From: a virus
Virus record (IMG/VR): IMGVR_UViG_3300038701_002468
Location: 1 to 41,534 of that record
DNA: 41,534 bases
Direction: 5' to 3' (one strand)
Within the stretch, counting starts at the first letter, position 1; the number at the start of each line of letters is the position of its first letter. The position numbers and the translations under genes were made by a program. Under the pieces are notes generated by a model. It saw only the letters and a list, made by a program, of their open reading frames with translations, ran no database searches and was not told the origin of the DNA. Positions 222-34,723 of this stretch are shown here, in pieces.

Positions 222-266
222 TTCTTATTCCTTTCTTTGTTTGTTTAAATGGCTAGTGGGTTAGCC
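222..266 (-). promoter_or_regulatory. ACCCAC-hexaloop leader hairpin before the junction HTH gene
   Basis: On the minus strand a 5-bp stem, GGCTA with TAGCC, closes a hexaloop ACCCAC (251-266). It is followed by TTTA, then AACAAACAAAG and the AAAGGA ribosome binding site of the gene starting at 221. The stop codon TAA of the upstream HNH-like gene lies inside the hairpin. The same loop with different but complementary stems recurs at 6352, 9086, 12561, 27544 and 34708. A regulatory RNA role is inference. Confidence 0.65.
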
Positions 267-665
267 GCAATATAATGCTGTATCGTTAATATTCCAGAAA
301 TCCAGACGTTCCTCAGACCTCTCAAGCCTTAGTTGCTTGCTTCTAGGGTTTTTGGATCTGTTAATCTGTAGATTTCTTGGGTGGTAATCGGCATTGTCTT
401 TTTTAAGTGAAATGCGGTCATTCATATTGGGATTCCAATCAGTGAATTGAATGACAACTTCTCTTAAAAGCGATCTTCTTGAACTTCCTGATGCGTGATT
501 AATTCTGACTAGCAATCTATCGCCATCGTAATAAGGTCTTAAAAACTGTCCACCACGTCTTGTAGTGTAAACTGTTCCGTTAACGTCGATGAAATAATCT
601 GTTGTGCCTGTGAACTGCTTGAAACCCATAGAAAATAGGTCGCAAGGACGTAATCCTTTACTCAT
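261..665 (-). CDS. HNH/NUMOD-like DNA-binding protein
   Basis: The 134-residue protein starts at the ATG at 665, which has AAGGAG eight bases upstream. The frame is open up to an ATG at 749, but that one has no ribosome binding site. The pattern DYFIDVNGTVYTTRRGGQFL resembles the NUMOD4-type repeat found beside HNH homing endonucleases. The later segment NDRISLKKDNADYHPRNLQI resembles the H..DGN..NN..NL part of an HNH fold, but the catalytic histidines are not all visible. It may be a DNA-binding regulator derived from an HNH enzyme. It is the first gene of the leftward operon, facing the 700-base control region. Confidence 0.6.
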   Translation of the reverse strand: MSKGLRPCDLFSMGFKQFTGTTDYFIDVNGTVYTTRRGGQFLRPYYDGDRLLVRINHASGSSRRSLLREVVIQFTDWNPNMNDRISLKKDNADYHPRNLQINRSKNPRSKQLRLERSEERLDFWNINDTALYCG

Positions 666-853
666 TTCTTTCTCCTTAGCAATGTTTGTAGTTGAACCTG
701 CAACTCCTGGGACGGAAATTGTCGGCTCCTGTCCATTGTAGGCTTTCATGTGGGTTGGTTGTCAAATGAAAAAATGAAATAATTGGGAGGATGGCTGAGA
801 TCGTGATTATTATTGAGAAGAAATTTTTTAGGTGTGTGTCGAAAAATCACATA

Positions 854-866
854 TCACAAATTGTGA
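854..866. promoter_or_regulatory. Palindromic operator-like site
   Basis: TCACAA and TTGTGA are perfect inverted arms around one central A. The site lies about 190 bases upstream of the first gene of the leftward operon, a natural place for a repressor operator. The binding protein is unknown; the XRE protein at 2872-3189 and the two small HTH proteins are candidates. Confidence 0.45.
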
Positions 867-874
867 CCTTTAAA

Positions 875-923
875 ATGTAACAAATGACACCCGAAAAAGG
901 TCAGTGAGTGCTGGTTGTTACAT
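875..923. repeat. 9-bp perfect inverted repeat with 31-base spacer
   Basis: ATGTAACAA at 875-883 is the exact reverse complement of TTGTTACAT at 915-923. It sits next to the operator-like palindrome at 854-866. It could be a pair of half-sites for a looping regulator, or a cruciform near an origin. Confidence 0.4.
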
Positions 924-1449
924 ATTAGGGAGAGGGGGAATAAAATTGGGGGATGGTAAAATAAAACTAGCGCAGCAGACAAGACCCCCACCCCCCCCTA
1001 TCAAATCAAAAATCGAATCCCTTTCAAATCCTTTGTATAAGCCTCATCATTCAAAGGTATACAAGCACATACATAATTAAAAACACACGCTTAAAACGAA
1101 TATATAGGCTTCATAAAGTGTAATTATCCGTACATTATAGCTGGCCAATGGCTACTGCTACCTAGCTGGCAACTTTCCTCAACGATATCAAAGACTTAGC
1201 CAGCAATGTTCTACAATGTTTCTTGTGGAACAATTTTAGACAAGACTGGACAAGATAAATCGTTCACAGATGCTTGAACGACTAGCATTTCAACCCTTCA
1301 GCTTCGCATTTTATTTTACTTATCCACACTCTCAATCAAGCTAATAGTCAGCCTCTATTACATTCTATTAATCAATCTATTTATAAATACACCTACTCTT
1401 TCATTTGTTTTTCCATTAAACTTTAAGTCAAACAAACAAGGAAAGAAAA

Positions 1450-2268
1450 ATGTCTTCAAAAGAAATTATCAAAAACTTTTCATCTAACTATTTAAACAAG
1501 ACAACAAAATCTCAAGCTGTTGCAATTTTAAATGACTTCATAGATGAGATAAAAATCAAAAAACTAAGCAGCTTAAAAATTAATCATCTAATTAAATACA
1601 GAGACATTCTGATTGCTAATAAATATAAACCAGCAACGATTCAACAGAAGTTTTCTTTTATAAAAAGCTTCTTAGATTATTTAGTTGGTGAAAATATGAT
1701 TGATAACAATCCAACCTCTAAAGTTAATCTTCCCAAAATTAAGAAACAGAATCATGCTAGAAATAACACAATCACTTCTATCGAAGCTAAAAAAGTTTTA
1801 GATGCGACTGACAACGAAAGAGATTATTTAATTATTTGGTTTGCTCTTTTTCTAGGTTTAAGAAGAAGTGAAATTGCTGGCTTGAAAGTTAAAGACATAA
1901 GCTATGGCTTAATTAAAATCAATGGCAAAGGGGACAAGGATCGTGAAGTTCCAATTCCATATTCTATTGCTGATAAATGTAGAAAAATTGCTGGTGATAA
2001 ATATATATTTCAAGGACAGGGAAAAGCTAAGCATATTGCCGCCATGACTGTTTACAGAATAGTTACCAAGCTGTGTTTCAAAAGACTGGGAAAGCATGTT
2101 TACCCTCATGCTGCCAGAGCTTCATTTGCAACTAATGCACTCTCTAAGACTCAAAATGTAGTTGATATCGGTCGAATCATGGGTCACTCATCACCAAAAA
2201 CTACAATGCTCTATGACAGCTCTGACTCTAATCAGTTAAAGAATACAATGAGGGATTTTTGGGATTGA
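1450..2268 (+). CDS. Xer-like tyrosine recombinase
   Basis: This 272-residue site-specific recombinase has a SAM-like core-binding domain (about 1-95) and a catalytic domain (about 108-270). The full catalytic set is visible: R138 in GLRRSE, K160/K163 in GKGDKD, H220 and R223 in HAAR, H246 in GHSSP and Y255 in LYDSS. Its length and lack of an arm-binding N-terminal domain resemble XerC/XerD and small integrases. The phage integrase at 33497 is a separate, larger type. The start has AAGGAAAG upstream and follows an AAACAAACAAGG leader without the hairpin. Possible jobs are dimer resolution of the circular genome, integration at a dif-like site, or a second integration system. Confidence 0.88.
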   Translation: MSSKEIIKNFSSNYLNKTTKSQAVAILNDFIDEIKIKKLSSLKINHLIKYRDILIANKYKPATIQQKFSFIKSFLDYLVGENMIDNNPTSKVNLPKIKKQNHARNNTITSIEAKKVLDATDNERDYLIIWFALFLGLRRSEIAGLKVKDISYGLIKINGKGDKDREVPIPYSIADKCRKIAGDKYIFQGQGKAKHIAAMTVYRIVTKLCFKRLGKHVYPHAARASFATNALSKTQNVVDIGRIMGHSSPKTTMLYDSSDSNQLKNTMRDFWD

Positions 2269-2411
2269 TCAAACTAATCAATTAACCAACCAGCCAACCA
2301 ACTGACTAGAATCACCGCATTCAACCAAGTAAATTCTAGCTGATTTTTGTTTACAAAATCATTAACCAATCATTCTGCCGATAGCTATTGGCAATCTATT
2401 CCAATATAAAT

Positions 2412-2475
2412 AAAGTAGCTTCAACAAACAAAGACTCCTAGCTGCTCTTTATTCCCACTAAAGGGCGGCTACTTT
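2412..2475. promoter_or_regulatory. Compound stem-loop 3' of the recombinase gene
   Basis: AAAGTAGC at 2412-2419 pairs with GCTACTTT at 2468-2475. Inside is a second hairpin, CTCTTTA (2445-2451) with TAAAGGG (2459-2465), closing the loop TTCCCAC. The tract AACAAACAAAG lies before the inner hairpin, the reverse of the order in the other leaders. On the minus strand the outer stem is followed by TTTATTTATATT, so it may also terminate the operon ending at 2469. It could alternatively be a retroregulatory 3' structure of the recombinase message. Confidence 0.4.
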
Positions 2476-2588
2476 GATCTATTAAATCTCTCAGTAACTT
2501 CTAAAAGCAACACAGGCACAAAGAAAATAAGAAAAGGAATGATTGCATACACCAACCATTCCTGGAATTCAGTCATTTGATAGGTCAT
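2469..2588 (-). CDS. Tiny single-pass membrane protein, lysogeny module
   Basis: A 39-residue frame starts at the ATG at 2588 (or at the in-frame ATG four codons later). It ends with a basic tail after one hydrophobic helix, roughly WLVYAIIPFLIFFVPVLLL at residues 11-29. It lies 56 bases downstream of the secreted-protein gene on the same strand, in the probable lysogenic operon headed by the XRE repressor. No clear Shine-Dalgarno precedes it, which lowers confidence. Small membrane proteins expressed from prophages often exclude superinfecting phage; here that is only inference. Confidence 0.5.
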   Translation of the reverse strand: MTYQMTEFQEWLVYAIIPFLIFFVPVLLLEVTERFNRSK

Positions 2589-2644
2589 ATAAGACCATTA
2601 TCACATGCTTATTAATTTTTCAGTAAATTATTCAGATAAGGATA

Positions 2645-2863
2645 TTACATACCGGCTTGAGCATAAGCCATGCCCTTCTTTAGGCCTTCTCTGTAGTCGT
2701 TAGATCCGATAGGTGTAATTGGAGCTATTGGGCAAATAGGTACTATAGCAATATCACCTTTTACGGCCTTGTAGCCCTCTTTGAAGCCAGCACAAAATTC
2801 AGCTTGACCGGCAAGCAAGCTAGTAGACATAAATAAAACAGCTAAAATGATTAGATTTTTCAT
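2645..2863 (-). CDS. Small secreted protein, lysogenic conversion candidate
   Basis: The 72-residue protein begins with a clear Sec signal peptide (basic MKN, hydrophobic core to about residue 18, then LLAG). The mature part of about 53 residues has two cysteines, one in EFCAGF and one in the proline-rich ICPIAPITPIG, and a repeated GYK/GMA-type GxxxG pattern. It follows the repressor stop by 8 bases with AGGGGA as ribosome binding site, so repressor and secreted protein are probably cotranscribed in the lysogen. That position marks it as a gene expressed from the prophage and acting outside the cytoplasm. The function is not recognised. Confidence 0.75.
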   Translation of the reverse strand: MKNLIILAVLFMSTSLLAGQAEFCAGFKEGYKAVKGDIAIVPICPIAPITPIGSNDYREGLKKGMAYAQAGM

Positions 2864-2871
2864 AAATTCCC

Positions 2872-3189
2872 CTATTTCTTAATTATATCATAGCCCAAAT
2901 GATCCAGCACAACCTTGAAGTCATCTGATTCTACAATGTTTTTTATTGAGTTGGTTAATAGTTGGCTTGGAGCTGATTTGCTCTCAATACCCAAAAGCTC
3001 ATCTGATGTAATCCCTAAAGCTAAGGATAGCGGCTTGATCATGTCCATACTGGGCTTTTTGCGTCCATTTTCCCAGTTGGCAATAGTTATCCTTGCAATT
3101 CCAGTGGCCTCAGCAAGGGCCTCTTGAGTTATCCCAAGGCGCTTTCTGGCTGACAAAAGATTAGACGAAAAGTTCAAATTGTTTCCCAT
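2872..3189 (-). CDS. XRE-family phage repressor (cI-like)
   Basis: This 105-residue DNA-binding protein has a lambda-repressor-type HTH at about 10-65: LSARKRLGITQEALAEATGI, then ARITIANWENGRKKPS. The C-terminal 35 residues are short and lack the LexA/cI self-cleavage peptidase fold, so induction would need another mechanism, such as an antirepressor or the HExxH protein at 34718. The ATG at 3189 is preferred over a TTG at 3198. It is divergent from the rightward early operon, with inverted repeats in between. It most likely maintains lysogeny. Confidence 0.85.
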   Translation of the reverse strand: MGNNLNFSSNLLSARKRLGITQEALAEATGIARITIANWENGRKKPSMDMIKPLSLALGITSDELLGIESKSAPSQLLTNSIKNIVESDDFKVVLDHLGYDIIKK

Positions 3190-3273
3190 AATGAACAATG
3201 TTTCTTTTTAATTAAAAAAACTATTGCCAACTGGAAATAATAAAAATATATTATCTCCATCAGGAAACATTCA

Positions 3274-3288
3274 CAGACAGGAAGTCTG
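3274..3288. promoter_or_regulatory. Inverted repeat, possible repressor operator
   Basis: CAGAC and GTCTG flank the pentamer AGGAA in the region between the repressor and the rightward operon. A longer pair, ATCTAC (3303-3308) and GTAGAT (3331-3336), lies just downstream. Their position between divergent operons suggests operators, but the arms do not match the site at 3412-3435 closely. Confidence 0.35.
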
Positions 3289-3411
3289 CTAATAACTAAA
3301 AAATCTACTCGCTCACCGCCAAGATCGTAAGTAGATACACAAAGGACGTGCCAAAGTGACAACAGCAAAACTTCTAACACCAATTCAAACTATATTCAAT
3401 TACGTCAAAAA

Positions 3412-3463
3412 ACTGTCGTGCAAATATTTGACAGTGACCCCATGTGAAAGCCTAAACTATAAA
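3412..3463 (+). promoter_or_regulatory. Rightward early promoter with overlapping palindrome
   Basis: A consensus -35 hexamer TTGACA is at 3428-3433. Possible -10 elements are TAAACT at 3453-3458 (spacing 19) or TATAAA at 3458-3463 (paired with GTGACC at 3434, spacing 18). The -35 lies in the inverted repeat ACTGTC (3412-3417)/GACAGT (3430-3435), and CAAATATTTG at 3421-3430 is itself a perfect palindrome. A repressor bound here would block the promoter, as expected of the phage switch. Non-ideal spacing lowers confidence in the exact hexamers. Confidence 0.5.
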
Positions 3464-3518
3464 AAGCGAGAAATACGCAGAAATAAGATAATTATTAAAG
3501 CCGGAGAGAGAGTTCATA

Positions 3519-3586
3519 GGTCTAGTAATCAAATACTTAGTCCCACCCTATTAAACCCTCTTTATTCTCCAGCCAAACAAACAAAG
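3519..3586 (+). promoter_or_regulatory. Weak copy of the CCCAC hairpin leader, right operon
   Basis: GGTCTAGTA (3519-3527) can pair with TATTAAACC (3549-3557) with one mismatch and one wobble. The enclosed loop holds TCCCAC at 3541-3546. It is followed by AAACAAACAAAG and AAAGG, but no start codon comes directly after. This matches the layout at 9086-9127, where a long structured leader intervenes before the gene. Confidence 0.35.
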
Positions 3587-3649
3587 CAAAGGCCAACATA
3601 GAAATGAAGGTCTAGCTCCTGATTCTGACTATATCCTAGTTTCTAAATC

Positions 3650-3736
3650 AGGCGCAACAGTAATTAAGTTATTTCTAAGTTTTTTGAGCACTTAGTCAAT
3701 TAATGCGCCTTGTTGATAACCCGCTATCCAGCAAGG
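3650..3736 (+). promoter_or_regulatory. Structured leader with two mutually exclusive stems
   Basis: AGGCGCA (3650-3656) pairs with TGCGCCT (3704-3710). Inside, TAATT (3661-3665) pairs with AATTA (3698-3702), and CTAAGT (3675-3680) with ACTTAG (3690-3695), giving a long imperfect hairpin. CCTTG (3708-3712) can instead pair with CAAGG (3732-3736), which would break the outer stem. It lies between the early promoter and the first rightward gene at 3763. An attenuator-like switch or an origin element are both possible. Confidence 0.4.
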
Positions 3737-3762
3737 GCAATTAACAAGCAAAGGAGAGGGGA

Positions 3763-3912
3763 ATGGAAAACCATCAGCAATTAACTCAATTTTGGAGCGA
3801 TCTCAGAGCGGCTTGTAACGAAAATGACCTAGAGAAGCTACTAGAGCTAGTTCAACCAAGTGTTTATGACATTTACGAGGAAACTGAGCAAATGGAAAGC
3901 GAGGTTAAATAA
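3763..3912 (+). CDS. Small acidic protein, first gene of the rightward operon
   Basis: A 49-residue frame with an excellent ribosome binding site (AAGGAGAGGGG) whose TAA overlaps the ATG of the replication gene (TAATG), so the two are translationally coupled. The protein is acidic and helical, with DLEKLLELVQPSVYDIYEE in the middle. No family is recognised. Position and coupling suggest an early or replication-associated function. Confidence 0.75.
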   Translation: MENHQQLTQFWSDLRAACNENDLEKLLELVQPSVYDIYEETEQMESEVK

Positions 3913-4760
3913 TGGCTTACGGAGAAAGTAAAAGCGACACAGGCTTCTGGTTCAAGCACTCTGCGATTGCCGGAAAAGATGAAAAGATCATGCAGATGAT
4001 TGATGATATGGGCAAAGAGTCATACTTCTACTTTTTTACTATTTTAGAAATGTGCACTGAAAAATATTACCAAACACCAGTAAAAGAAAGAACTAACACT
4101 TTTAAGTTTCATACGAGATTTCTTAGGGATAGGCTTAGAATAAACACTCGTAAACTCAACATATACTTAGTTTATCTTCAAGATAAGTTCAATATAAACT
4201 CAACTTATATTGAGTCTTCACTCCAGATAAATATTCCTAACCTACCGAAATATATGGGAAATGAAACCGTAGAGAAAGAGAAAGAGAAAGAGAAAGAGAA
4301 AGAGAATATATTATGTATTGTTGATAAATCAACAACACCGAAAGAGCCCCTAAAAATTGTTAGTGAAACCATCGAACTTCCATTAGAAGAAAAACCAAAG
4401 AAAGCTAATAATTCAAAGCACAGAGAAAAAGCCAAAGAGATACTTGAGCTACTAAACAAAAAAGCTAGCAAGAAATATAGGCCAGTTAATACCAATCTCG
4501 ACTTGATAATTTCACGCCTAAAAGAAGGCTATGAATTCAGTGATTTTGAGCACGTTATCAGCAACAAATCTATCGAGTGGTTAGCCGATGAAAAAATGAA
4601 CAAGTTTTTACGCCCAAAAACCCTGTTTTCCAAGACAAACTTCGCAAACTATACAGGAGAGGAAAAAATTGAGTCCATAGAGGCCCAAATTAAAGCCATA
4701 GACGATGAAATCAACCAGACCCTAGCAGATGCCTTCGATAAAGTGGAGCCTTGGATATGA
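3912..4760 (+). CDS. Phage replication initiation protein (DnaD-like, conserved phage C-terminal domain)
   Basis: The 282-residue protein has an N-terminal winged-helix-like half (about 10-115; GFWFKHSAIAGKDEKIMQMI, then a folded region with KFHTRFLRDRLRI). A charged linker of alternating Lys-Glu (120-131) follows. The C-terminal domain (about 170-250) has the pattern of the conserved phage C-terminal domain: HREKAKEILELLNKKASKKY, I.SRLKEGYEFSDFEHVI, W..D.KM..FLRP.TLF. Such proteins recruit the helicase to the phage origin. The next gene, overlapping by 4 bases, is the DnaB-like ATPase, as expected of an initiator/helicase pair. Confidence 0.75.
   Translation: MAYGESKSDTGFWFKHSAIAGKDEKIMQMIDDMGKESYFYFFTILEMCTEKYYQTPVKERTNTFKFHTRFLRDRLRINTRKLNIYLVYLQDKFNINSTYIESSLQINIPNLPKYMGNETVEKEKEKEKEKENILCIVDKSTTPKEPLKIVSETIELPLEEKPKKANNSKHREKAKEILELLNKKASKKYRPVNTNLDLIISRLKEGYEFSDFEHVISNKSIEWLADEKMNKFLRPKTLFSKTNFANYTGEEKIESIEAQIKAIDDEINQTLADAFDKVEPWI
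4272..4306 (+). repeat. GAGAAA hexanucleotide tandem repeat
   Basis: Five perfect GAGAAA units are followed by a partial sixth. They lie in frame in the replication gene and encode the alternating Glu-Lys linker. Because the unit is six bases, slippage would change linker length without a frameshift. Confidence 0.9.
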
Positions 4761-5623
4761 GCCATTTTCAAGACAATCAGAAAATAGAGCTAGAGCTGCA
4801 AAAAAAGAGTGTTATGAATCATGTAACCTCGATGACTTTTTTAGGTCAGCACAAGGGTTTTCGTGATGGAAAAATGCACGTTATTTCAGCTCCCACAGAT
4901 AGCGGTAAATCTACTCTAGTTAGAACAATAATTTTAGACCATTTAACAGCCAATCAAGAAATGACAATTTTTCTCTACTTATCAGAAGAAACCACGATCG
5001 ATTTTAAAGTTGAGATGCTCCAAATTATCAAAGACATTCAGAAAGAATCCCCAGTAAGAGCGCAAAAACTACAAGATTTGTTTAATCACAACTTGGTTAT
5101 TTACAGCGAGCAAGATCCTGGAGTCAATGAACGTGATCCAATTACTATGGTTAATGACCTTGCTTTAATGTTTGCCGAGTCAGGAGCTCACATCTTAATT
5201 ATCGACAATCTCACTACTAGCGGAATGTATGCAGATAAACAGATTCATGTTCAATCGAGGATCGCCACAAGGGTTAAGAAAATGGCACAAACTTTTCAGG
5301 TTCCAGTTGTTCCAATTATGCACCTTGGAAAAGGTAAGGGTGTCGGTGCTGCTGGTGAGCCCTCAAAGGATGATGTTCGTGGTGGAGCTACAATTATTAA
5401 CTTGGCTGAGTTCAGTTACATGCTTCAAATGATTCAGATCGATGACAAAAAACACACTTTTGTTCGTGCTGATAAATCAAGGGGCTTCAATAAACTGCAT
5501 CAGTATTTTTCACTTGAGTACAATCCTAAAATGCAAATTTACCAGAAATGTATACCAGTGAAGTTCGCTAATTTTAAAGAGAAATTTAATCTAAGAAACC
5601 GTCTAACAGACAAGAAAAAATAA
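4757..5623 (+). CDS. DnaB-like replicative helicase / RecA-fold ATPase
   Basis: This 288-residue RecA-fold ATPase has Walker A APTDSGKS at about 45-52, Walker B HILIID at about 145-150, and a Q/R-rich later region (MAQTFQVPVVPIMHLGKGKG) like the DnaB C-terminal domain. The DnaB N-terminal primase-interaction domain is absent, so it is a short helicase of the phage type. The ATG at 4757 is chosen because GGAG lies eight bases upstream and it overlaps the initiator stop (ATGA). No primase gene is recognised, so priming is probably by the host. Confidence 0.82.
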   Translation: MSHFQDNQKIELELQKKSVMNHVTSMTFLGQHKGFRDGKMHVISAPTDSGKSTLVRTIILDHLTANQEMTIFLYLSEETTIDFKVEMLQIIKDIQKESPVRAQKLQDLFNHNLVIYSEQDPGVNERDPITMVNDLALMFAESGAHILIIDNLTTSGMYADKQIHVQSRIATRVKKMAQTFQVPVVPIMHLGKGKGVGAAGEPSKDDVRGGATIINLAEFSYMLQMIQIDDKKHTFVRADKSRGFNKLHQYFSLEYNPKMQIYQKCIPVKFANFKEKFNLRNRLTDKKK

Positions 5624-5632
5624 GGAGAATAA

Positions 5633-6379
5633 ATGATTAAACTAAATGGCCATGAAATAAAGCCAACCATTTTTCCAGATAAAACATCACAGATTTGGAA
5701 GATTAGTGATTTATTTGTTAATGGTCGCCAACAAATAACGTGGGAGTTTGAAAGTGAATCAGAAATAATTCAACTTAAGCAACTTGCCGATCTCGTAGAA
5801 TTTAAAAGATTCTCAGCCTCACTTTACATGCCCTATCTCCCATATGGAAGACAGGATAAGCCTGTTTCGGATATGCAGACATTTGCGCTTCTAAGTCTAT
5901 CCAGGATTATTAACAGCATGGGCTTCTGGGAAGTAAAAACACTTGATGCCCACTCTCGAAAATTTAATCATTTTTTTAAAAGTGCTGAAAATATCTTGCC
6001 TAACAAAGAAATACGAACAGCTCTCATAGCATCTAACCCCGATGTAATAGTTATTCCAGATAGTGGTGCAAAAAGGTATTTAGATATGCCAATCCTTGAG
6101 GGCTACCCATACTGCATTGGTGAAAAAGAAAGAGATGAAGCAACTGGATATATCACTAACTATGAAATTGATGGAGAAGTTGATTCAAGAAAATGTCTAA
6201 TCATTGACGACATTTGTGACGGTGGAATGACCTTTAAACTACTGGCAGCCGAGCTTCTAAGTCAAGGCGCAGCAGAGGTCAATCTATATGTCACTCACGG
6301 CATTTTTTCAAAAGGAATACAAACACTAAAAGACGCAGGAATTAATAGAATCTTTACCCACAAAGGAGAAATCAAATGA
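5633..6379 (+). CDS. prs: PRPP-synthetase-like enzyme (Prs/Adps-type)
   Basis: The 248-residue protein belongs to the ribose-phosphate pyrophosphokinase family. The ATP-binding loop PYLPYGRQDKPVS is at about 67-79, the metal-binding histidine in DAHS at about 107, and the PRPP loop IIDDICDGGMTF at about 190-201. It is shorter than bacterial PrsA (about 315 residues), as in other phages. It ends inside the start of nadV (overlap ATGA). Known family chemistry is pyrophosphate transfer from ATP to a ribose-5-phosphate group. Beside a NAMPT-like gene it either supplies PRPP or, as in NARP1 systems, makes ADP-ribose pyrophosphate. The sequence alone does not settle the substrate. Confidence 0.88.
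   Translation: MIKLNGHEIKPTIFPDKTSQIWKISDLFVNGRQQITWEFESESEIIQLKQLADLVEFKRFSASLYMPYLPYGRQDKPVSDMQTFALLSLSRIINSMGFWEVKTLDAHSRKFNHFFKSAENILPNKEIRTALIASNPDVIVIPDSGAKRYLDMPILEGYPYCIGEKERDEATGYITNYEIDGEVDSRKCLIIDDICDGGMTFKLLAAELLSQGAAEVNLYVTHGIFSKGIQTLKDAGINRIFTHKGEIK
6352..6365 (+). promoter_or_regulatory. ACCCAC-hexaloop hairpin over the nadV ribosome binding site
   Basis: CTTT (6352-6355) and AAAG (6362-6365) close the hexaloop ACCCAC. The 3' arm is the first part of the AAAGGAG Shine-Dalgarno of nadV, which starts at 6376, so the folded form hides it. The stem is short (four pairs plus one wobble) and lies in the end of the prs coding sequence. Confidence 0.5.
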
Positions 6380-7881
6380 AGTTATTAGCAACATTAGCAG
6401 CAGACGGTTACAAACTAAGCCACAAAAATCAATACCCAGAAGGAACTGAAAAGGTTTACTCAACATGGATCCCAAGATCAGGAAAGCACTTACCTCAAGT
6501 AGATGAGGTTGTAGCCTTTGGCTTTCAAGGTGCAATTAAAGAAATGCACGATCTGTTTGACGAGCAATTTTTTAGCAGATCAAAAGAAGATGTAATGGCC
6601 GAGTACAAAAGAGCGATTAAGTCTTATCTTTTTATTCAAGATGCAGACACATCTCACTGGGAGTCATTGCATGATCTGGGTTATTTGCCACTAGAGATCA
6701 AGGCATTAGATGAGGGTACACTTGTTCCTTTTCGGGTTCCAATACTAACTATTGAGAATACCCATAATGATTTTTTCTGGCTTACAAACTATCTTGAAAC
6801 TTTCTTTTCAGCACTGTTATGGAAACCCTGCACCACCGCTTCCATCGCTAGAAAATATCGCCAAATCCTTGACAAGTATGCACTTGAAACAACTGGATCA
6901 ACGGAAGGTGTAGGTTTTCAAGGTCACGATTTTTCAGCCAGGGGAATGAGTGGACTAGAAGATGCAGCAAGGTCAGGAATGGGTCACATCACTGCATTTG
7001 ATGGCTCAGACACACTTCCAGTCCTTGCCTACGCTGAACATTACTATAACGCTAACCTCGATGAAGAATTAGTTGCATGTAGTGTTCCAGCAACGGAGCA
7101 TTCGGTGATGTGTGCTGGCGGTGCAGATGATGAATATGAAACTTATCGCAGATTGATTGAAGACATTCATCCCACTGGAATTGTAAGTATCGTTTCTGAT
7201 ACTTGGGATTTATGGCATGTAATGACTGACACCTTGCCGAAGTTAAAGGATAAAATCCTAGCTAGAGATGGTGGAGAAGGTTCAATTGACAAGGTTGTTA
7301 TTCGTCCTGACAGTGGTAATCCTGCTGACATTATTTGTGGAATTGGTAAAAATCCAGAAGCTCAATTTAAAAATACACCAGAGGAAAAAGGTGTCATTGA
7401 ACTTTTGTGGGATGTTTTTGGCGGTCATGTAAATGAACAAGGATACAAAGTTTTAAATCCTAAAATCGGTGCAATCTATGGCGACTCAATTACCCTTGAA
7501 ATCTGTGAGGATATTTGCAAAAGACTCAAGCAAAAAGGCTTTGCCTCTACCAACGTAGTCTTTGGCATCGGTTCATATACATATCAATACTTAACTAGAG
7601 ATAGCTTAGGGTTTGCCATGAAAGCAACTAACGTAACTATTAACGGCAGCGAAAGGGCTATTTTCAAAGACCCAGTTACTGATGATGGAACCAAGAAATC
7701 ACTGAAGGGTCGATGTGCAGTTTTAAGGAGCCCACAAAACGGAAAATTAAATACTATCGATGATGAAACATTGAATGTTAGAGTTTTTTTAAGAGAGGAA
7801 GATTTGCTAACCACGGTCTACAGTAACGGAAAACTTTTAAAAGAAACAAGCTTAAAGGAAATCAGGTCAAGGTTAAGATAA
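6376..7881 (+). CDS. nadV: Nicotinamide phosphoribosyltransferase family enzyme (NadV/NAMPT)
   Basis: This 501-residue protein is full length for the NAMPT/NadV family. Visible signatures are GFQGHDFSARGMSGLE at about 180-195 (the HDFG..G region), VPATEHS at about 238-243 with the catalytic histidine, and VVIRPDSGNP at about 307-316. A further one is IYGDSITLE followed by FGIGSYTYQYLTRDS. The enzyme joins nicotinamide to PRPP, giving NMN, or, in the phage NARP1 pathway, to ADP-ribose pyrophosphate, giving NAD+ directly. It is coupled to the Prs-like gene by a 4-base overlap. No NMN adenylyltransferase was recognised in the genome. Confidence 0.93.
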   Translation: MKLLATLAADGYKLSHKNQYPEGTEKVYSTWIPRSGKHLPQVDEVVAFGFQGAIKEMHDLFDEQFFSRSKEDVMAEYKRAIKSYLFIQDADTSHWESLHDLGYLPLEIKALDEGTLVPFRVPILTIENTHNDFFWLTNYLETFFSALLWKPCTTASIARKYRQILDKYALETTGSTEGVGFQGHDFSARGMSGLEDAARSGMGHITAFDGSDTLPVLAYAEHYYNANLDEELVACSVPATEHSVMCAGGADDEYETYRRLIEDIHPTGIVSIVSDTWDLWHVMTDTLPKLKDKILARDGGEGSIDKVVIRPDSGNPADIICGIGKNPEAQFKNTPEEKGVIELLWDVFGGHVNEQGYKVLNPKIGAIYGDSITLEICEDICKRLKQKGFASTNVVFGIGSYTYQYLTRDSLGFAMKATNVTINGSERAIFKDPVTDDGTKKSLKGRCAVLRSPQNGKLNTIDDETLNVRVFLREEDLLTTVYSNGKLLKETSLKEIRSRLR

Positions 7882-7882
7882 A

Positions 7883-9085: not shown

Positions 9086-9127
9086 GTAGGTCTAACCCAC
9101 TAGACCTACCCAACAAACAAAGCGGAG
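9086..9127 (+). promoter_or_regulatory. ACCCAC-hexaloop leader hairpin with AACAAACAAAG tract
   Basis: A perfect 9-bp stem, GTAGGTCTA with TAGACCTAC, closes the hexaloop ACCCAC at 9095-9100. It is the longest simple stem of the family. It is followed after CC by AACAAACAAAGCGGAG (9112-9127), identical over 16 bases to the tract before the major coat gene. No start codon follows at SD distance here; the next gene begins at 9270 after a further structured stretch. Confidence 0.7.
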
Positions 9128-9151
9128 TTTAACAAACCAATTATTCATATA

Positions 9152-9245
9152 CCTTGCAGGGTGTTTTCCTTACTAAATCCTTACTTTTTTAGCCAAACGT
9201 TTTGATGTAGTTTTTTTTCTTTCCGCCCTGCAAGGCCCTTCGGGG
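9152..9245 (+). promoter_or_regulatory. Long GC-rich stem structure in the RuvC leader
   Basis: CCTTGCAGGGTG (9152-9163) pairs with CGCCCTGCAAGG (9224-9235) over 12 bp including one wobble. The 60-base loop is T-rich and holds a small CTAAA/TTTAG stem (9173-9177/9188-9192). A CCC-TTCG-GGG hairpin with a stable UUCG tetraloop follows at 9236-9245. No gene is seen between 9026 and 9269. It could be a riboswitch-like leader, a small RNA or an origin structure; no known class is recognised. Confidence 0.45.
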
Positions 9246-9269
9246 AATGAGTAATCAGTTTAATGGATT

Positions 9270-9818
9270 ATGAATTACTCACTCGGTGTAGATTTTGGAA
9301 GTAACGGTGGACTAGCTCTACTCTCTCCATGCGGTGAAATTGAAAAAGTATCTGTTATGCCTATGACTAAATCATCATGGGGAGCAAATATCGTTGATGT
9401 AGTTAAGCTTCGTGACTTTGTTATGAGGTGTGAATCAATCGCTGAAACTTCTATATATGTAACGATGGAAATTGGCAGATCACATGGCAGAAATCTTGGA
9501 AAGGGTGCTGTCTCTATGGGTGACAATTTTGGATCTGTTCGTTCATTTTTCGAGTGTTTAGGTTATGAGCTTCATCTAGTAGAGCCTAAGAAGTGGCAGA
9601 AATATATCTTTAGTGAGTACAAGATTAAGCCAATTAAAAAAGCAAATAAGAAATCAAGAGACACAAAAGCAATGGCCTTGGATGCTGTGAAAGTTATTTA
9701 TCCAGGCTTTGATTTTAGAAAAAATAGCAGATGTAAAATTTTTCATGATGGGATTGTAGATGCAACTCTCATGGCACGTTATCAGATGGAGGTAAAGGGA
9801 AATGAGAAAAGTAGTTGA
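9270..9818 (+). CDS. RuvC-like Holliday junction resolvase
   Basis: This 182-residue RNase H-fold nuclease has D8 in GVDFGSNGG, E67 in VTMEIGRS and the acidic pair D160/D164 in HDGIVDATLMARY, the four-carboxylate layout of RuvC and poxvirus A22-type resolvases. It would cleave branched DNA in replication or recombination intermediates before packaging. The start codon lies next to a TGAGTAAT/ATTACTCA inverted repeat (9248-9255/9274-9281), and no strong Shine-Dalgarno is visible, so translation may be controlled. It overlaps the next gene by 17 bases. Confidence 0.75.
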   Translation: MNYSLGVDFGSNGGLALLSPCGEIEKVSVMPMTKSSWGANIVDVVKLRDFVMRCESIAETSIYVTMEIGRSHGRNLGKGAVSMGDNFGSVRSFFECLGYELHLVEPKKWQKYIFSEYKIKPIKKANKKSRDTKAMALDAVKVIYPGFDFRKNSRCKIFHDGIVDATLMARYQMEVKGNEKSS

Positions 9819-10958: not shown

Positions 10959-11158
10959 TGGACGGAAACAAAATAGAAAGCGTAAGAGCTACCTTTAATG
11001 GCTTTAGTGTTGATATCGGAATGAACCCTCACTCGTCAAGAGATATTGGCATGCACATTAACTTTCCAATTACCAAGGATAAACAAGAAGAAGCCCTTGC
11101 ATTAATGGAGAAGATTGCAAGGGAAGTTAGAGAGTTTGAAAAGAGGATTAATCAATGA
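10958..11158 (+). CDS. Small unknown protein
   Basis: The 66-residue protein is coupled to both neighbours (TAATG at 10958, ATGA at 11155). It has the look of a small beta hairpin followed by one long helix (DKQEEALALMEKIAREVREF). No motif recognised; the neighbours suggest a DNA recombination accessory. Confidence 0.6.
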   Translation: MDGNKIESVRATFNGFSVDIGMNPHSSRDIGMHINFPITKDKQEEALALMEKIAREVREFEKRINQ

Positions 11159-11436
11159 GCTCTCACTTTAAAAAAGTAGCTGTAGCAAAATACAATGCCG
11201 CCAGAGAAAGGCACAAGCAAGATTTCGGGTTGGCAAAAGACCAATTAAGCAGACTGTTTAAAGACAAGGAAATCATCCAGCAAGCCAGGCAAGCAAGAGA
11301 TGAGATTAACACTCAAGCAAAGAAGAGGCTAGTTAAGTCATCTAACGGCTGCAATTACACAGCGCAGAGATTATTTAAAACATATAAACCTGTCACGCTA
11401 AAAGAAGTGATGGCAGCTACATTGAAGGAGAATTAG
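11155..11436 (+). CDS. Small basic unknown protein
   Basis: This 93-residue, strongly basic, mainly helical protein is rich in Ala, Lys and Gln (FKKVAVAKYNAARERHKQDF). It could bind nucleic acid, but no domain is recognised. It overlaps the previous gene by 4 bases and is followed by the next after one base. Confidence 0.6.
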   Translation: MSSHFKKVAVAKYNAARERHKQDFGLAKDQLSRLFKDKEIIQQARQARDEINTQAKKRLVKSSNGCNYTAQRLFKTYKPVTLKEVMAATLKEN

Positions 11437-11437
11437 G

Positions 11438-12034
11438 ATGGCTTACAATTATGATAATGAGACGAGTTCAAGCGCAAGTCTTAGGCCTAGTCTTGATTAC
11501 TTTGACACTCTTAGGTACTCGATAAGTGACTGGGATTTTGGGAGGTCAAGGCTCACAAAAGAAAAATACGAAATGCTAAAAGCAACAAATTTCACGGCAG
11601 CTAAAGTACTTGGTTTTGATTGTATCTCCACATATTCAATTAACAATAAGATCAAAGGCCTTGAAAAGACTATTCGCAGTCGTGAGGACTACGCAGATGG
11701 AATGAGAAGTTCTTTAGATATTGCAAAAGAAAATTCACACCCATTCATGTTCTTGAATCGTATCTCTTTAAAAATCACAGAAATGCTTACTAAGAATATT
11801 AATAGAACCGTTGAATATAAAGATGAGCTATATGCGCTTAGAACTTTGTTGTCAAATGTAAAAGAGGTTGAAAAATATGAAGATCAAATTGCAAAAGATA
11901 AGGAAAGGGCAAGGCAAAGAGAGCAAGAGCTTGCTGACCAGATAACAGCGTTAGAGGCTCTAGCCAAAAAGAAGAAAAAGAAAACCAAAAAGAAGACTAA
12001 GAAAAAAGTAGTCAAGAAAACTAAGAAGAAATAG
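11438..12034 (+). CDS. Coiled-coil protein with lysine-rich tail
   Basis: The 198-residue protein has a globular N-terminal half and a long helical region (about 70-170, ending [20 protein letters not shown]). A C-terminal tail of about 25 residues is almost all Lys and Thr ([20 protein letters not shown]). Such tails bind nucleic acid without sequence specificity. It lies directly before SSB with a shared spacing of 10 bases. It may be a DNA-binding accessory of replication or recombination. Confidence 0.6.
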
Positions 12035-12471: not shown

Positions 12472-12547
12472 GCCCTGATAGCTTAATTGGTAAAGTCGCT
12501 GATTCCAAATCAGTTGGATAAGAGTTCAAATCTCTTGAAGGGTGCCA
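12472..12547 (+). tRNA. tRNA-Trp (anticodon CCA)
   Basis: A 76-base cloverleaf can be drawn by hand: D stem GCTT/AAGT, anticodon stem GCTGA/TCAGT with loop TTCCAAA (anticodon CCA at 12505-12507), T stem AAGAG/CTCTT with loop TTCAAAT, discriminator G and encoded CCA. The acceptor pairs are 1-5 with 68-72, and positions 6-7 with 66-67 form a tandem G-A mismatch. It sits between ssb and the RecE-like gene. It would supplement reading of UGG codons. Confidence 0.85.
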
Positions 12548-12560: not shown

Positions 12561-12618
12561 GCCTCGTTAATTTTCCCACAAGTTAGCGAGGCTTTTAGAG
12601 AACAAACAAAGGATTGAA
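12561..12618 (+). promoter_or_regulatory. UCCCAC-hexaloop leader hairpin before the RecE-like gene
   Basis: GCCTCGTTAA (12561-12570) pairs with TTAGCGAGGC (12583-12592). Three more pairs (T71-G82, T72-A81, T73-A80) extend it to 13 bp closing the hexaloop TCCCAC (12574-12579). Then come TTTTAGAG, AACAAACAAAGG (12601-12612) and the ATG at 12619. It belongs to the same leader family as those at 251, 9086, 27544 and 34708. It lies 14 bases after the tRNA, so it could also set the processed end of the message. Confidence 0.65.
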
Positions 12619-27514: not shown

Positions 27515-27520
27515 TTAGGC

Positions 27521-27561
27521 CTCCGCTTTGTTTGTTTTGTTATGTGCTTGTGGGTAAGCAC
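27521..27561 (-). promoter_or_regulatory. ACCCAC-hexaloop leader hairpin before the coat gene
   Basis: On the minus strand GTGCTT and AAGCAC close the hexaloop ACCCAC (27544-27561). ATAACAA, AACAAACAAAG and the ribosome binding site GCGGAGG follow, then the ATG at 27514. The 16-base tract at 27521-27536 is identical to that at 9112-9127. Confidence 0.7.
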
Positions 27562-27575
27562 GTTTTTAAAAAATA

Positions 27576-30616: not shown

Positions 30617-30623
30617 TAACTGC

Positions 30624-30893
30624 CTAGTCGTCGAACTGAGCTAGTAGATAGTCTTCCGCTTCATCAGGGTCTACCGTTAGCATTTCTAAATCTTCAATTT
30701 CTTCTAAGAGTTCGGCTTCACTGGTTGGTGATAGCTCAGAGGGCTGTGGCAGTTGATTTTCTGCCATCGGTTCAATATTCTCATAGTTTTGCTCTATCAT
30801 CAAGAAATTTATATAGATATCACCTATCTCTATTTCTTTAACCCCAGATTCAGAGCAAGTTCTCACTAGCTTGCAAAGGTCTTTAATATTCAA
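30624..30893 (-). CDS. Small acidic protein between terminase and portal
   Basis: About 89 residues from a TTG at 30893; the frame is open to 30965, but that would overlap terminase by 83 bases. The product is very acidic in its second half (EAELLEEIEDLEMLTVDPDE). No clear ribosome binding site. Small genes at this place in podovirus operons are common and mostly of unknown function. Confidence 0.5.
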   Translation of the reverse strand: MNIKDLCKLVRTCSESGVKEIEIGDIYINFLMIEQNYENIEPMAENQLPQPSELSPTSEAELLEEIEDLEMLTVDPDEAEDYLLAQFDD

Positions 30894-32400
30894 GGTCGAA
30901 CATTGAGTTGATTTCACTGATTTCGTCGATGATTTCGTCTTTTTCTTTTTGCGTATAGATGCCATTGTCAGTCCACCTTGTTCGCTCTTTTGGAACGTGT
31001 TTAACTTCTTCTTTTGGGTCTAGTTTTTTGATTGCTTCTAATTGAAAGTTGAGCTTTGAGAGTGCATACCTAAGAGAGTCTGAGAGTGTGTCCTCTACTG
31101 ACTGCTTGACTGCATTTATAGGAATTGATCTTAGTTCAGCTAATAAAAGCGTGTTATCTGTATGCTCATCAGTCATGATTTTAAGAGCACCGTGCTTAAA
31201 AAGAGTGTTTAAAAGATTTAATCCTGGTTCACGCTTCTTGTTAGCGGTTTCAACTGATATTCCATGCCTAGCTGCTAAAATCCCAATATCTGCTGCTGAA
31301 TAATCATAAAAACAGCGAGTGATTTTAAATCTCGTTAATACGCTTCTTTTGTACTTTTCTAAAATGTCACCGCTGGTTACATCTTCACCGCTTGATCGCC
31401 ATGACCAAACAACCCTTGCTTTGATATACTCAGGGCATACAGCAACAACCACGATTCCAGCGTTGTGACCTGTTTTTCCACCTGAGCCATAATCGATTCC
31501 GCAAAAGTAATTCCAATCTTTTGGCAATGGGTGTGGGTTGCTGGTGTTCCTTTGCTCGTCATATCCATTAAAAAGAAGTCCATCCTCTTTCATGAATCCA
31601 CCGTAAATTCTGACTTTAATTTGCTTAGGTGTTAGTGATTTTTCTAGCTCTTTAATTTTTTCGACAGTAACTTCGGTTTCTGTTCCATCTTCATATTCAA
31701 GACAGTCATAGGCCGATACTTTCATTTTCAGAATATCCACCTCGTGCTCAGGCCAGACTTCTTCTTCTGGGTTTTTAGGATCAGGCTCAATAACCCTTCT
31801 CCATTCATCTTGCCCAATAGTCGGAGTTGCAACCATTGAGAAATATCCACTGTTAGCATTTAACCTGAGCCTTAATTCTCCCTCTAAATCCCAAGGCAAT
31901 TCTTCATCACAAAAAAGAGCGTAAACGGTTGCACCTTGAAGGGCTTTCTTACCCTGCTTGTAAGCACGGAATTCAATACGAACGCCAGAGTTAAATTTGA
32001 TATAGTGGATGTCTTGACCTTTATACTTAAAAGTCCATCCATATATAGGGTGATCTTTCAGCGATTCATCAGGCAATAAACCTTTCCATTTAAGCTCAAA
32101 CTCAGAAGTTGCATCTTTTCTTGAGGGATATAAATACCAAAACAAATTTGGTGTTTTTTTCCATAAAGAAGGCCAGAGCTTCGGGCTGGTTGCCCATTTA
32201 ATAGCCTTGGTGATTTGAATGTGAGATTTACCGATCTGGTTTCCGGCTGACAGTATGCAAAAGCGATTCGTGGCTTCCAAAAATTTTCTCTGCCAGGGAT
32301 AAAACTTAAACTGATACAAATGCGGAAGCTTAGACCTCATCTTATTGATGTAGTCCATTGCCTCAAGTTCTTGTATTAAATCTTCTCTAGTCTTGGTCAT
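30883..32400 (-). CDS. terL: Terminase large subunit
   Basis: The 505-residue packaging motor has Walker A SAGNQIGKS at about 51-59 and Walker B ALFCDEE at about 161-167. The nuclease domain shows D303 in CGIDYGSGG and acidic residues in FYDYSAADIG (about 364-373). The ATPase drives DNA into the prohead and the RNase H-like domain cuts it. It overlaps the TerS stop by 14 bases. With short terminal repeats or a circular map, the packaging mode cannot be decided from the sequence. Confidence 0.93.
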   Translation of the reverse strand: MTKTREDLIQELEAMDYINKMRSKLPHLYQFKFYPWQRKFLEATNRFCILSAGNQIGKSHIQITKAIKWATSPKLWPSLWKKTPNLFWYLYPSRKDATSEFELKWKGLLPDESLKDHPIYGWTFKYKGQDIHYIKFNSGVRIEFRAYKQGKKALQGATVYALFCDEELPWDLEGELRLRLNANSGYFSMVATPTIGQDEWRRVIEPDPKNPEEEVWPEHEVDILKMKVSAYDCLEYEDGTETEVTVEKIKELEKSLTPKQIKVRIYGGFMKEDGLLFNGYDEQRNTSNPHPLPKDWNYFCGIDYGSGGKTGHNAGIVVVAVCPEYIKARVVWSWRSSGEDVTSGDILEKYKRSVLTRFKITRCFYDYSAADIGILAARHGISVETANKKREPGLNLLNTLFKHGALKIMTDEHTDNTLLLAELRSIPINAVKQSVEDTLSDSLRYALSKLNFQLEAIKKLDPKEEVKHVPKERTRWTDNGIYTQKEKDEIIDEISEINSMFDLEY

Positions 32401-33058
32401 CAGGCGTTACGTCAATTGCGTCACTTAACAGTGATGCCCTACGTTCAGCCAAACGCTTTTCAAGTTCTTCAACTTCCATATTTTTGTAATCTATTTTCTT
32501 TTTTACTGATGGATCATCGGTGTTGACGTTGTAGTTTACACTCTCAGATCGAGTGTGTTGCATAGGCCCACCGTGAAGCCTTAAATCATTGATCTTGTAG
32601 ATATCAATTAAGTTTTTAATTAACTTGTTATCAATCTCACCGTCACCATTTTCAAGTGAGAGTTCAAGAACATCATCAAAACGATCCAGAATCCTCATCT
32701 GCAACGCTTCTACTAATAACGTCTGTTTAACTGGTCTAGTGAACACATAGGCAGCCTTCCATGGATCTTCTAAATGTCTGTAAAAAGCTCTATGAGTGCA
32801 TACCGAAGCATAAACCCTAGTCATCGACATTTGAGTATCTCTAGCAACTGCTTGATCGTATTCATGCCAAAATGAAAGCCTGATACAATCAATGATTTTA
32901 ATATTTGCGTGTTTTAGTTTTTCTCTTAGATGTTTTTCGCTTTTAGTCTCCATTAGTTCCTGGACTTCTGAATCCATGAACATAGAAGCGAGCTTTTCGC
33001 TGCCCAAAAGACGCTCAAGAGAAATTTCGGTATCTGCTTTAGTAGTTAAATCTGACAT
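32387..33058 (-). CDS. terS: Terminase small subunit
   Basis: The 223-residue protein immediately upstream of terL is helical. The middle region (MSMTRVYASVCTHRAFYRHL) can be read as a DNA-binding or oligomerization domain, and the C-terminus is acidic (LSDAIDVTPDDQD). Position, size and coupling define it as TerS, which recognises the packaging site. A late promoter candidate lies 85 bases upstream. Confidence 0.75.
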   Translation of the reverse strand: MSDLTTKADTEISLERLLGSEKLASMFMDSEVQELMETKSEKHLREKLKHANIKIIDCIRLSFWHEYDQAVARDTQMSMTRVYASVCTHRAFYRHLEDPWKAAYVFTRPVKQTLLVEALQMRILDRFDDVLELSLENGDGEIDNKLIKNLIDIYKINDLRLHGGPMQHTRSESVNYNVNTDDPSVKKKIDYKNMEVEELEKRLAERRASLLSDAIDVTPDDQD

Positions 33059-33075
33059 ATTTTAAAAGAGACATG

Positions 33076-33091
33076 GGGAATTGCTTCCCCA
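33076..33091 (-). promoter_or_regulatory. GNRA-tetraloop hairpin in the terS leader
   Basis: GGGGAA and TTCCCC close a GCAA tetraloop on the minus strand, 17 bases before the terS start. GNRA loops are very stable. No Shine-Dalgarno is seen between hairpin and start. A role in mRNA stability or translation is possible. Confidence 0.45.
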
Positions 33092-33142
33092 AGAAAGACA
33101 ACCATTAAGAAATGGCCAGTGGGACGTAAGCCTACATGAATA

Positions 33143-33171
33143 ATTGTAGATTAAAGGTTGATAGATAGCAA
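33143..33171 (-). promoter_or_regulatory. Probable late promoter
   Basis: On the minus strand TTGCTA (33171-33166) and TACAAT (33148-33143) are separated by 17 bases. They match the consensus at four and five of six positions. The start would be near 33136, about 80 bases before terS. The leader carries TCCCAC at about 33119-33124 in a poorly paired context. Confidence 0.55.
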
Positions 33172-33245
33172 CTATTATTTTTAAAACTCAATAGATGAGC
33201 ACTATTCAATGTACCCCGAAAAAGAGTACATATCCCCAAAAAAAA

Positions 33246-33265
33246 TGTGGTAAAAATGTGGCAAT
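33246..33265 (+). repeat. Left arm-type repeat of attP
   Basis: TGTGGTAAAAATGTGGCAAT contains two close copies of TGTGG. It recurs at 33485-33504 with one change (T to C), on the other side of the tRNA-like core. Such pairs around the core are typical arm-binding sites of tyrosine integrases. Confidence 0.7.
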
Positions 33266-33418
33266 TTTTTAAAAAACAGGTCAAAGTATGGCAAATACTG
33301 TCCATAAAAGACTAGATTTAGCGAGGCTGCGAAACAGTCAAAAGCACTATAAGTACAGGGCAACCGGCTTTGTTTCACCTCTAGATGTGCTGTGTGCAGT
33401 TTTAGCCAAAAAGTAGCC

Positions 33419-33442
33419 GTTCGATCCCGGGTACCTCCACCA
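33419..33442 (+). other. attP: attP core identical in form to the 3' end of a tRNA gene
   Basis: The 24 bases have the T-loop TTCGATC, the 3' strand of a T stem, an acceptor 3' strand (TACCTCC), a discriminator A and CCA. No tRNA 5' part is present. This is what is left of the host attachment site, so the phage integrates into the 3' end of a tRNA gene and rebuilds it. The core lies 55 bases from the integrase start and between two arm repeats. The host tRNA would start with the acceptor complement GGAGGTA. Confidence 0.8.
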
Positions 33443-33484
33443 TGACCGCTCAAGTTATTGAAATTATAGACTTTTCAAAATCCT

Positions 33485-33504
33485 TGTGGCAAAAATGTGG
33501 CAAT
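33485..33504 (+). repeat. Right arm-type repeat of attP, overlapping the integrase start
   Basis: TGTGGCAAAAATGTGGCAAT differs from the left arm at one base. The GTG start (33497) of the integrase gene lies inside it, so integrase bound here would cover its own start region in DNA. Confidence 0.7.
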
Positions 33505-34516
33505 GGCAATTATAAAAAGAAATTCTAAGAAGGGTGCACGCTACATGGCAAGATTCATGTCGGGCGGTATTCGCTATTCAAAAACCTTTGAAACGCTAAG
33601 GGCAGCTAAGAAATGGGAGGCCAATTTCGACACAGATAAAAAGATTGCTCATAAAGGCAGTTATTTTACTGTTAAAGATGCCTGGTCTGAATTCATAAAA
33701 GAGCGTGTTCCAACAAGAGCAAATTCAACTATCAGGGATTATCACGCAACAATGAAATATTGTGTTGAGTTTTTCAAAGATAAAATGGTTGATGAAATAA
33801 CAAGATCGGACTGCACTAGGTTTAGAGATTCGCTGTCTAAAAAAGGGCTTCATCCAAGAACGGTTAATAGTCATATTAATCTATTAAAAGCCCTGTTCAA
33901 TAGTCTTTTAAGTAAAGAAGAAATTGAAAAAACACCACTTCACAAGTTTGAAGCACTCCCCCTGCAAAAAGATGAGCATGTATATTGGTCAGTTGATGAA
34001 GTGAATGAATTTAAGGAAAAATCAAAGGGCTGGGAGCATCGAGATATTATTTTATTTGCTCTAAATACAGGCATGAGGCTTGGAGAAATAGCTGCGCTAA
34101 CTAACAGGTCAATTGATCTAAATAATGAGCTAATAAGGGTTGATAAGAGCCTATCAAGAGGTGAATTAAAAAGAACTAAAACTGGTGAGATGAGGTTTTT
34201 GCCAATTAACAAAAGCCTTAAAGATATCATTAAAAGAGCTGATAAGAATGGCTATTTGTTTACAGTCAATAACCAGCCAATTCAAACTAACAGATTTTGC
34301 AGCCGTACTTTTAAGCCGTTCCTGGTAAAGAATAATATTCCACTGATTAGATTTCATGATTTAAGACATACTTTCGCCAGTCACTTTATGATGAATGGCG
34401 GTGATGTGTTTACGCTAAAAAAACTACTAGGCCACAAAGACATTGCAAGCACTATGATTTATGCTCATCTTTCAAAGGATTACTTGAAGAAGGCTGGGGA
34501 GATTGTAGGGTTTTAA
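33497..34516 (+). CDS. int: Phage integrase (tyrosine recombinase)
   Basis: The 339-residue integrase has an arm-binding N-terminal domain (KRNSKKGARYMARFMSGGIR), a SAM-like domain at about 58-155, and a catalytic domain at about 165-339. All catalytic residues are seen: R194 in TGMRLGE, K228, H287 and R290 in HDLRH, H313 in LGHKD, and Y322 in MIYAHL. The start is either GTG at 33497 or ATG at 33503; neither has a strong Shine-Dalgarno. The gene sits next to attP, converging with the excisionase gene. Confidence 0.93.
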   Translation: MAMAIIKRNSKKGARYMARFMSGGIRYSKTFETLRAAKKWEANFDTDKKIAHKGSYFTVKDAWSEFIKERVPTRANSTIRDYHATMKYCVEFFKDKMVDEITRSDCTRFRDSLSKKGLHPRTVNSHINLLKALFNSLLSKEEIEKTPLHKFEALPLQKDEHVYWSVDEVNEFKEKSKGWEHRDIILFALNTGMRLGEIAALTNRSIDLNNELIRVDKSLSRGELKRTKTGEMRFLPINKSLKDIIKRADKNGYLFTVNNQPIQTNRFCSRTFKPFLVKNNIPLIRFHDLRHTFASHFMMNGGDVFTLKKLLGHKDIASTMIYAHLSKDYLKKAGEIVGF

Positions 34517-34689
34517 TTCAACCCCTGGTTAAACAACCAATTATTCACCTTATCTTCATAAAACCTTACCAGCCCACCAAGCTTAAAGCTAGGTAGTGGA
34601 TCTTTCTTTTTGGTTCTTAGTCGATCAATTGTTCGTTCTGATATTTTAAGTTTTTCTGATAGTTCTTTTTTATCGATTATTTTTGGCAT
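34513..34689 (-). CDS. xis: Excisionase (winged HTH, MerR-like)
   Basis: A 58-residue frame has the HTH_17/AlpA-Xis pattern: DKKELSEKLKISERTIDRLR, then KDPLPSFKLGGLVRFYEDKV with a C-terminal NNWLF. Such proteins bind and bend the attP arm and direct excision. It converges with int, overlapping its stop by 4 bases. It is preceded by an ACCCAC-loop hairpin, AAAACAAAC and GGAG, and is the last gene of the leftward operon, so excision is coupled to early lytic transcription. Confidence 0.8.
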   Translation of the reverse strand: MPKIIDKKELSEKLKISERTIDRLRTKKKDPLPSFKLGGLVRFYEDKVNNWLFNQGLN

Positions 34690-34723
34690 ATTGTCTCCGT
34701 TTGTTTTGCCTAGTGGGTTAGGC
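34690..34723 (-). promoter_or_regulatory. ACCCAC-hexaloop leader hairpin before xis
   Basis: On the minus strand GCCTA and TAGGC close the hexaloop ACCCAC (34708-34723). AAAACAAAC, GGAG and the xis ATG at 34689 follow. The stop TAA of the metalloprotease gene lies within the hairpin, exactly as the HNH-like gene stop does at 251-266. Confidence 0.65.

Follow-up and report, generated by a model that had tools for sequence, protein, structure and literature searches.

The window analysed here, the whole 41,534-nucleotide stretch of a virus record, carries copies of a short hairpin ahead of the ribosome-binding sites in five or more unrelated phage genes, in which stems of differing sequence present the same loop, (A/U)CCCAC. 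Six such hairpins were found on the sense strand, five of them with their end 18-29 nt before a start codon (29 nt for the HTH and coat genes, 26 nt for the RecE-like gene, 19 nt for the scaffold gene and 18 nt for xis). By kind, this is a loop-recognised leader hairpin; its form and sequence are, as far as we searched, undescribed, making it a new variant. We give an about even chance to the reading in which a putative factor recognises the loop and regulates translation initiation through it. Most known phage regulons work through promoters, operators, or antitermination, and one loop placed before genes of every stage would amount to a post-transcriptional phage regulon.

An exact 126-bp terminal repeat (bases 2-127 equal 41408-41533) shows that the window holds the phage genome in full. 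Podovirus-type head genes are present (TerL, portal, and tail/internal virion proteins), and the other predicted genes comprise a RecE-like exonuclease, a RuvC-like resolvase, a helicase, a repressor, two integrases, and nadV. A 58-aa protein matching HTH_17 (ATG 34689) is consistent with xis. Both integrase genes (1450-2268 and 33497-34516) are of the tyrosine type, two in a single phage genome.

Table 1 Hairpin copies and tail sequences of the leader element in the phage genome.
Feature	Position	Strand	Context
HTH hairpin, GGCTA-ACCCAC-TAGCC	251..266	-	Before HTH gene, ATG at 221; 5′ arm includes TAA stop (261-263) of preceding gene
HTH tail, AACAAACAAAG, then AAAGGA SD	235..245	-	
RuvC-operon leader hairpin, GTAGGTCTA-ACCCAC-TAGACCTAC, 9 bp	9086..9109	+	
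RuvC-leader tail and SD, AACAAACAAAGCGGAG	9112..9127	+	Same as coat copy
RecE hairpin, 13 bp, loop TCCCAC	12561..12592	+	Between tRNA-Trp and RecE-like gene, ATG 12619
RecE tail, AACAAACAAAG	12601..12611	+	
Coat hairpin, GTGCTT-ACCCAC-AAGCAC	27544..27561	-	Scaffold-coat junction, 14 nt past scaffold stop; coat ATG 27514
Coat tail and SD, AACAAACAAAGCGGAG	27521..27536	-	
Scaffold hairpin, TGCCC-AACCCACA-GGGCA, 5 bp, 8-nt loop	28549..28566	-	19 nt before scaffold ATG 28529; within final codons of portal gene; no AACAAACAAAG
xis hairpin, GCCTA-ACCCAC-TAGGC	34708..34723	-	Before 58-aa xis-like gene, ATG 34689; upstream gene's TAA inside 5′ arm; tail AACAAACGGAG
Doubtful nadV copy, ACCCAC, weak 4-5 bp A-U stem, ~-0.3 kcal/mol	6351..6366	+	Inside end of prs gene; hairpin end 9 nt from start codon
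Atypical copy, AACAAACAAAG (2423), then 13-bp hairpin 2439-2471, loop TTCCCAC	2423..2471	+	
Tail alone, AACAAACAAAG, at most 3 bp around CCCAC	3576..3586	+	
AACAAACAAGG, no hairpin	1431..1441	+	Leader of integrase gene 1450

The hairpins that the sequence-only reading had placed before the HTH, RuvC, RecE-like, coat, and xis genes were all found, as was the shorter scaffold hairpin, and its view that genes of different stages share the element is upheld for early, late, and excision genes. Three of its other sites fared less well: the nadV copy, counted among the good ones, has the loop on a barely stable stem; the copy at 3519-3586 has AACAAACAAAG and just 3 bp around CCCAC; and no stem was found at ~33119 when one was looked for. 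Two points had escaped that reading: an eighth copy, at 2439-2471(+), with AACAAACAAAG ahead of its hairpin, and the lack of a start codon behind the SD of the 9086 copy.

The excess of these hairpins over chance was evaluated in several ways. The genome has four ACCCAC-hexaloop hairpins, each with AACAAA at most 12 nt downstream, whereas 300 dinucleotide shuffles gave at most two such shared-loop hairpins (two in 6/300, otherwise one), any shared loop, not just ACCCAC, being allowed in the shuffles. In leaders, defined as the 80 nt upstream of predicted starts, six of the seven CCCAC occurrences lie inside hairpins, against 3/28 elsewhere (Fisher p = 3e-4). When all 1024 pentamers were ranked as leader-hairpin loops, CCCAC came first (p = 4e-9), and the best pentamer unrelated to it had p = 0.003. 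Without the leader criterion, the excess of CCCAC hairpins was modest (6/35, p = 1.3e-4).

The stems were then compared between copies. Across seven copies, 97.1% of the pair cells are paired versus 63.8% after shuffling, and the covariation score is 1.04 versus 0.33, with 0/500 shuffles as high; sliding the pairing partners left at most 57% paired. Each of the five inner pairs differs between copies in both arms yet stays paired, the exception being one A-A in the scaffold copy, and the commonest pairs at stem columns 3-4 are C-G and U-A. Because the seven copies were picked partly for pairing, a fairer test is the pentamer ranking, in which loop and position alone decide the choice of sites. 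As the element was found in no other genome, the covariation rests on copies within one genome.

Each gene-linked copy has its CCCAC loop on the coding strand of the gene that it precedes. In addition, the G-U pairs of the strong stems (RecE and 2439-2471) help the CCCAC strand only: the RecE hairpin is predicted at -16.5 kcal/mol in the sense orientation versus -9.7 kcal/mol on the opposite strand, and the 2439-2471 hairpin at -16.3 kcal/mol on the + strand versus -9.3 kcal/mol on the opposite one. Confinement of these pairs to the CCCAC strand makes sense-strand RNA, and not duplex DNA, the likely selected form. The earlier claim of an RNA-level element is upheld by the varying stems, the fixed loop, its constant place on the sense strand of the gene, and the sense-strand-only G-U pairs.

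The same observations bear on two DNA- or antisense-based explanations. On the opposite strand, the copies could be intrinsic terminators with a GTGGG loop followed by T-rich stretches, and indeed the RuvC, RecE, coat, xis, and nadV copies have T-rich antisense tails and two copies scored terminator-like on the antisense strand. We regard this as very improbable, as the RecE and 2439 hairpins are stable in the sense orientation and broken by their G-U pairs in the antisense one, the HTH and scaffold copies have no T tails, and the fixed loop would go unexplained. Equally disfavoured is a duplex-DNA operator or promoter element: although CTAACCCACTAG is common to the HTH, RuvC, and xis copies and a TATAAT-like sequence lies upstream of the RuvC and xis copies, the arms vary complementarily, the copies keep the orientation of their genes, and a sigma70 scan gave no matching promoter at the copies. 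The longest open frame, 721 codons, rules against an N4-type virion RNA polymerase, which uses DNA hairpins.

In the predicted leader folds, the hairpin is formed, the loop is unpaired, and the linker is mostly open. The loop-recognised leader hairpin could be pictured as follows. A sequence-specific factor would recognise the (A/U)CCCAC hexaloop on its short stem, a stem of any sequence serving only to present the loop, and the A/C-rich, unstructured AACAAACAAAG would keep the Shine-Dalgarno sequence (SD) behind it open. The hairpin would end at the upstream edge of the 30S loading zone, 18-29 nt before the start, so that binding of the factor would either stimulate or block initiation. Its targets would mostly be downstream cistrons (HTH regulator, RecE-like, scaffold, coat, and xis), and the element would link several phage genes at the level of translation. 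The factor is probably a phage-encoded RNA-binding protein; a kissing RNA whose loop reads GUGGGU is another possibility. The fixed loop with compensatory stems, the leader excess, the sense-strand bias, the 18-29 nt spacing, and the unpaired loop and mostly open linker speak for this reading, as does the density of AACAAACAAAG, with six occurrences in this 41-kb genome versus seven in family contigs totalling 1.88 Mb (~39-fold denser here). The features themselves are observed, whereas the factor, its coding gene, an activating or repressing action, and a timing are inferred. The ACCCAC hairpin would be a defined RNA bait for fishing out such a factor.

The linkers also raise the possibility that no factor is involved, the hairpin and a CAA-type unstructured linker simply keeping the SD open and the unit having spread in the genome by duplication. 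AACAAACAAAG-type linkers without a hairpin, at 1431 and 3576, would suit a factor-free leader. So would the 16 nt shared by two copies, where the identity noticed earlier between 9112-9127(+) and 27521-27536(-) was confirmed. Neither duplication with drift nor a purely structural role predicts differing stems with a fixed loop, and we consider this explanation improbable.

A role in RNA processing or stability is unlikely, though the likeliest of the rival readings. Here, a host or phage nuclease would cut the A/U-rich stretch before the hairpin, which would shield the new 5′ end and raise expression of the downstream cistron over that of the upstream gene. Most copies lie at junctions of co-read genes, the HTH and xis copies holding the preceding stop codon in the 5′ arm, the scaffold and nadV copies lying inside the last part of the gene before them, and the coat copy beginning shortly after the scaffold stop; these intercistronic positions, their A/U-rich, single-stranded flanks, and the need for differential expression of scaffold and coat would all fit. 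However, a 5′ stabiliser does not require a fixed loop sequence, and RNase III needs stems longer than 5 bp.

Two copies fit a translational role poorly. The 9086 copy is followed by a CGGAG SD with no start codon within reach, and ~140 nt of strongly folded sequence separate it from RuvC (whole-leader z -3.6). This folded leader (9127-9270) has a 10-bp inverted repeat, CCTTGCAGGG/CCCTGCAAGG, and gave no Rfam match. The 2423-2471 copy lies 155 nt 3′ of integrase gene 1450-2268 with its modules in reversed order, has no downstream gene on the + strand, obtains a low score with model R1 (9.4 bits), and also scores terminator-like. Unless they are relics, these copies argue against a role in translation alone, and cleavage by a nuclease would account for both of them.

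They also recall nut- or put-like antitermination, in which a factor bound to a hairpin and a linear box in nascent RNA modifies RNA polymerase. Lambda-type nut sites likewise combine a conserved-loop hairpin with a linear box in phage mRNA, and this bipartite form, the other module order at 2423-2471, and the position of the 9086 copy at the head of an operon, before a strongly folded leader, would be in keeping with such a function. In contrast to lambda, boxA-like sequences are not enriched (8 found versus 11 expected) and none stands beside a copy, and the copies, at least six, mostly lie where genes and not operons begin, those of scaffold and coat just 1 kb apart in one operon. The nut-like function suggested by the sequence-only reading hence appears rather improbable.

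Among known systems, the sites of CsrA/RsmE are close in design: near the SDs of many genes, a short stem of variable sequence, with C-G/U-A closing pairs, carries a fixed hexaloop (PMC4005645). RsmE/CsrA bind with high affinity when this hexaloop, ANGGAX, sits immediately on a stem whose closing pairs are C-G and U-A (PMC4005645), the two pairs that are also commonest at columns 3-4 of the present stems. Here, the hexaloop also sits directly on a stem with a variable lower part (the scaffold loop has 8 nt), but the loop is (A/U)CCCAC, GGA is found in the loop of 0/8 copies, and the element lies upstream of the SD rather than covering it. Cluster K mycobacteriophages offer another parallel in their Start-Associated Sequences and Extended SAS (SAS/ESAS), a short element repeated right upstream of many phage starts, about half of the copies having inverted repeats. 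The ESAS arms are conserved and RNA pairing is unsupported, which fits a DNA operator (PMC3203893), whereas here the arms vary and pair; in place of conserved 17-bp inverted-repeat arms, we found arms of 5-13 bp that differ between copies, and the 13-bp SAS consensus GGGATAGGAGCCC had 0 matches in the window with up to 2 mismatches. As a constant loop on stems of arbitrary sequence resembles CsrA/RsmE sites and an ESAS-type DNA operator does not fit, translation control is the favoured reading.

Phage translational operators, such as those of MS2 coat and T4 gp32/RegA, also place an RNA site at a translation start. Such operators usually act on a single gene or a small number of genes and extend over the start, whereas here one loop precedes many genes from 18-29 nt upstream. 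It is a tentative further step, and one we think may well be wrong, that a global regulator of translation akin to CsrA, encoded by the phage and using ACCCAC as its own loop code, coordinates the early, excision, and capsid genes; we know of no phage with a post-transcriptional regulon of this kind. Among the phage proteins scanned, none matched CsrA and no candidate RNA-binding protein could be named. The region 11155-12034 encodes a protein with a lysine-rich C-terminal tail (11438-12034) and a small basic ORF (11155, pI 10.2), both possible nucleic-acid binders.

The element was also sought elsewhere. Rfam covariance models returned only tRNA-Trp in the window at E <= 1, and tblastn searches of INPHARED with coat, TerL, portal, and helicase gave nothing at 1e-5. 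In searches for relatives with RecE and RuvC, all matches among those listed were below 30% identity. Peptide scans with coat or TerL alone were rejected, and TerL plus coat profile scans of IMG/VR reached the phage's own family, ~120 contigs with TerL 35-46% and coat 29-41% identical. The element was absent from these ~120 profile-matched contigs and, among whole family records, from 35 by pattern and 26 by model. Hairpins in the coat leader are not a family trait. The sole strong model match in relatives (L348:3452) was rejected, as it lies within the portal coding sequence. Exact DNA patterns in IMG/VR yielded, among the matches listed, chance ones without good stems in leaders, and 84,980 GTDB species genomes gave no match with a convincing leader stem. 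The earlier claim that the element is undescribed thus stands for Rfam, the literature (narrow search), and large sequence collections. No convincing recurrent loop of different sequence was seen in the relatives. In one of them, a hairpin of nine perfect base pairs (L165:7631-7654) presents the loop AGGCCA right before the scaffold SD, a loop for which no recurrence was found.

Other features of the genome were observed alongside. The tRNA-Trp gene (12472-12547) lies immediately upstream of the RecE hairpin copy. Upstream of integrase 33497, within 33400-33450, TTCGATCCCGGGTACCTCCACCA resembles a tRNA 3′ end and is likely the attP core; the putative attB, as an exact 23-mer, had 0 matches in 399 Pseudomonadota genomes. 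Finally, nadV and the adjoining prs-like phosphoribosyltransferase (5633-7881) form an NAD-salvage pair, and 1938 phage records match nadV, nearly all at below 60% identity.
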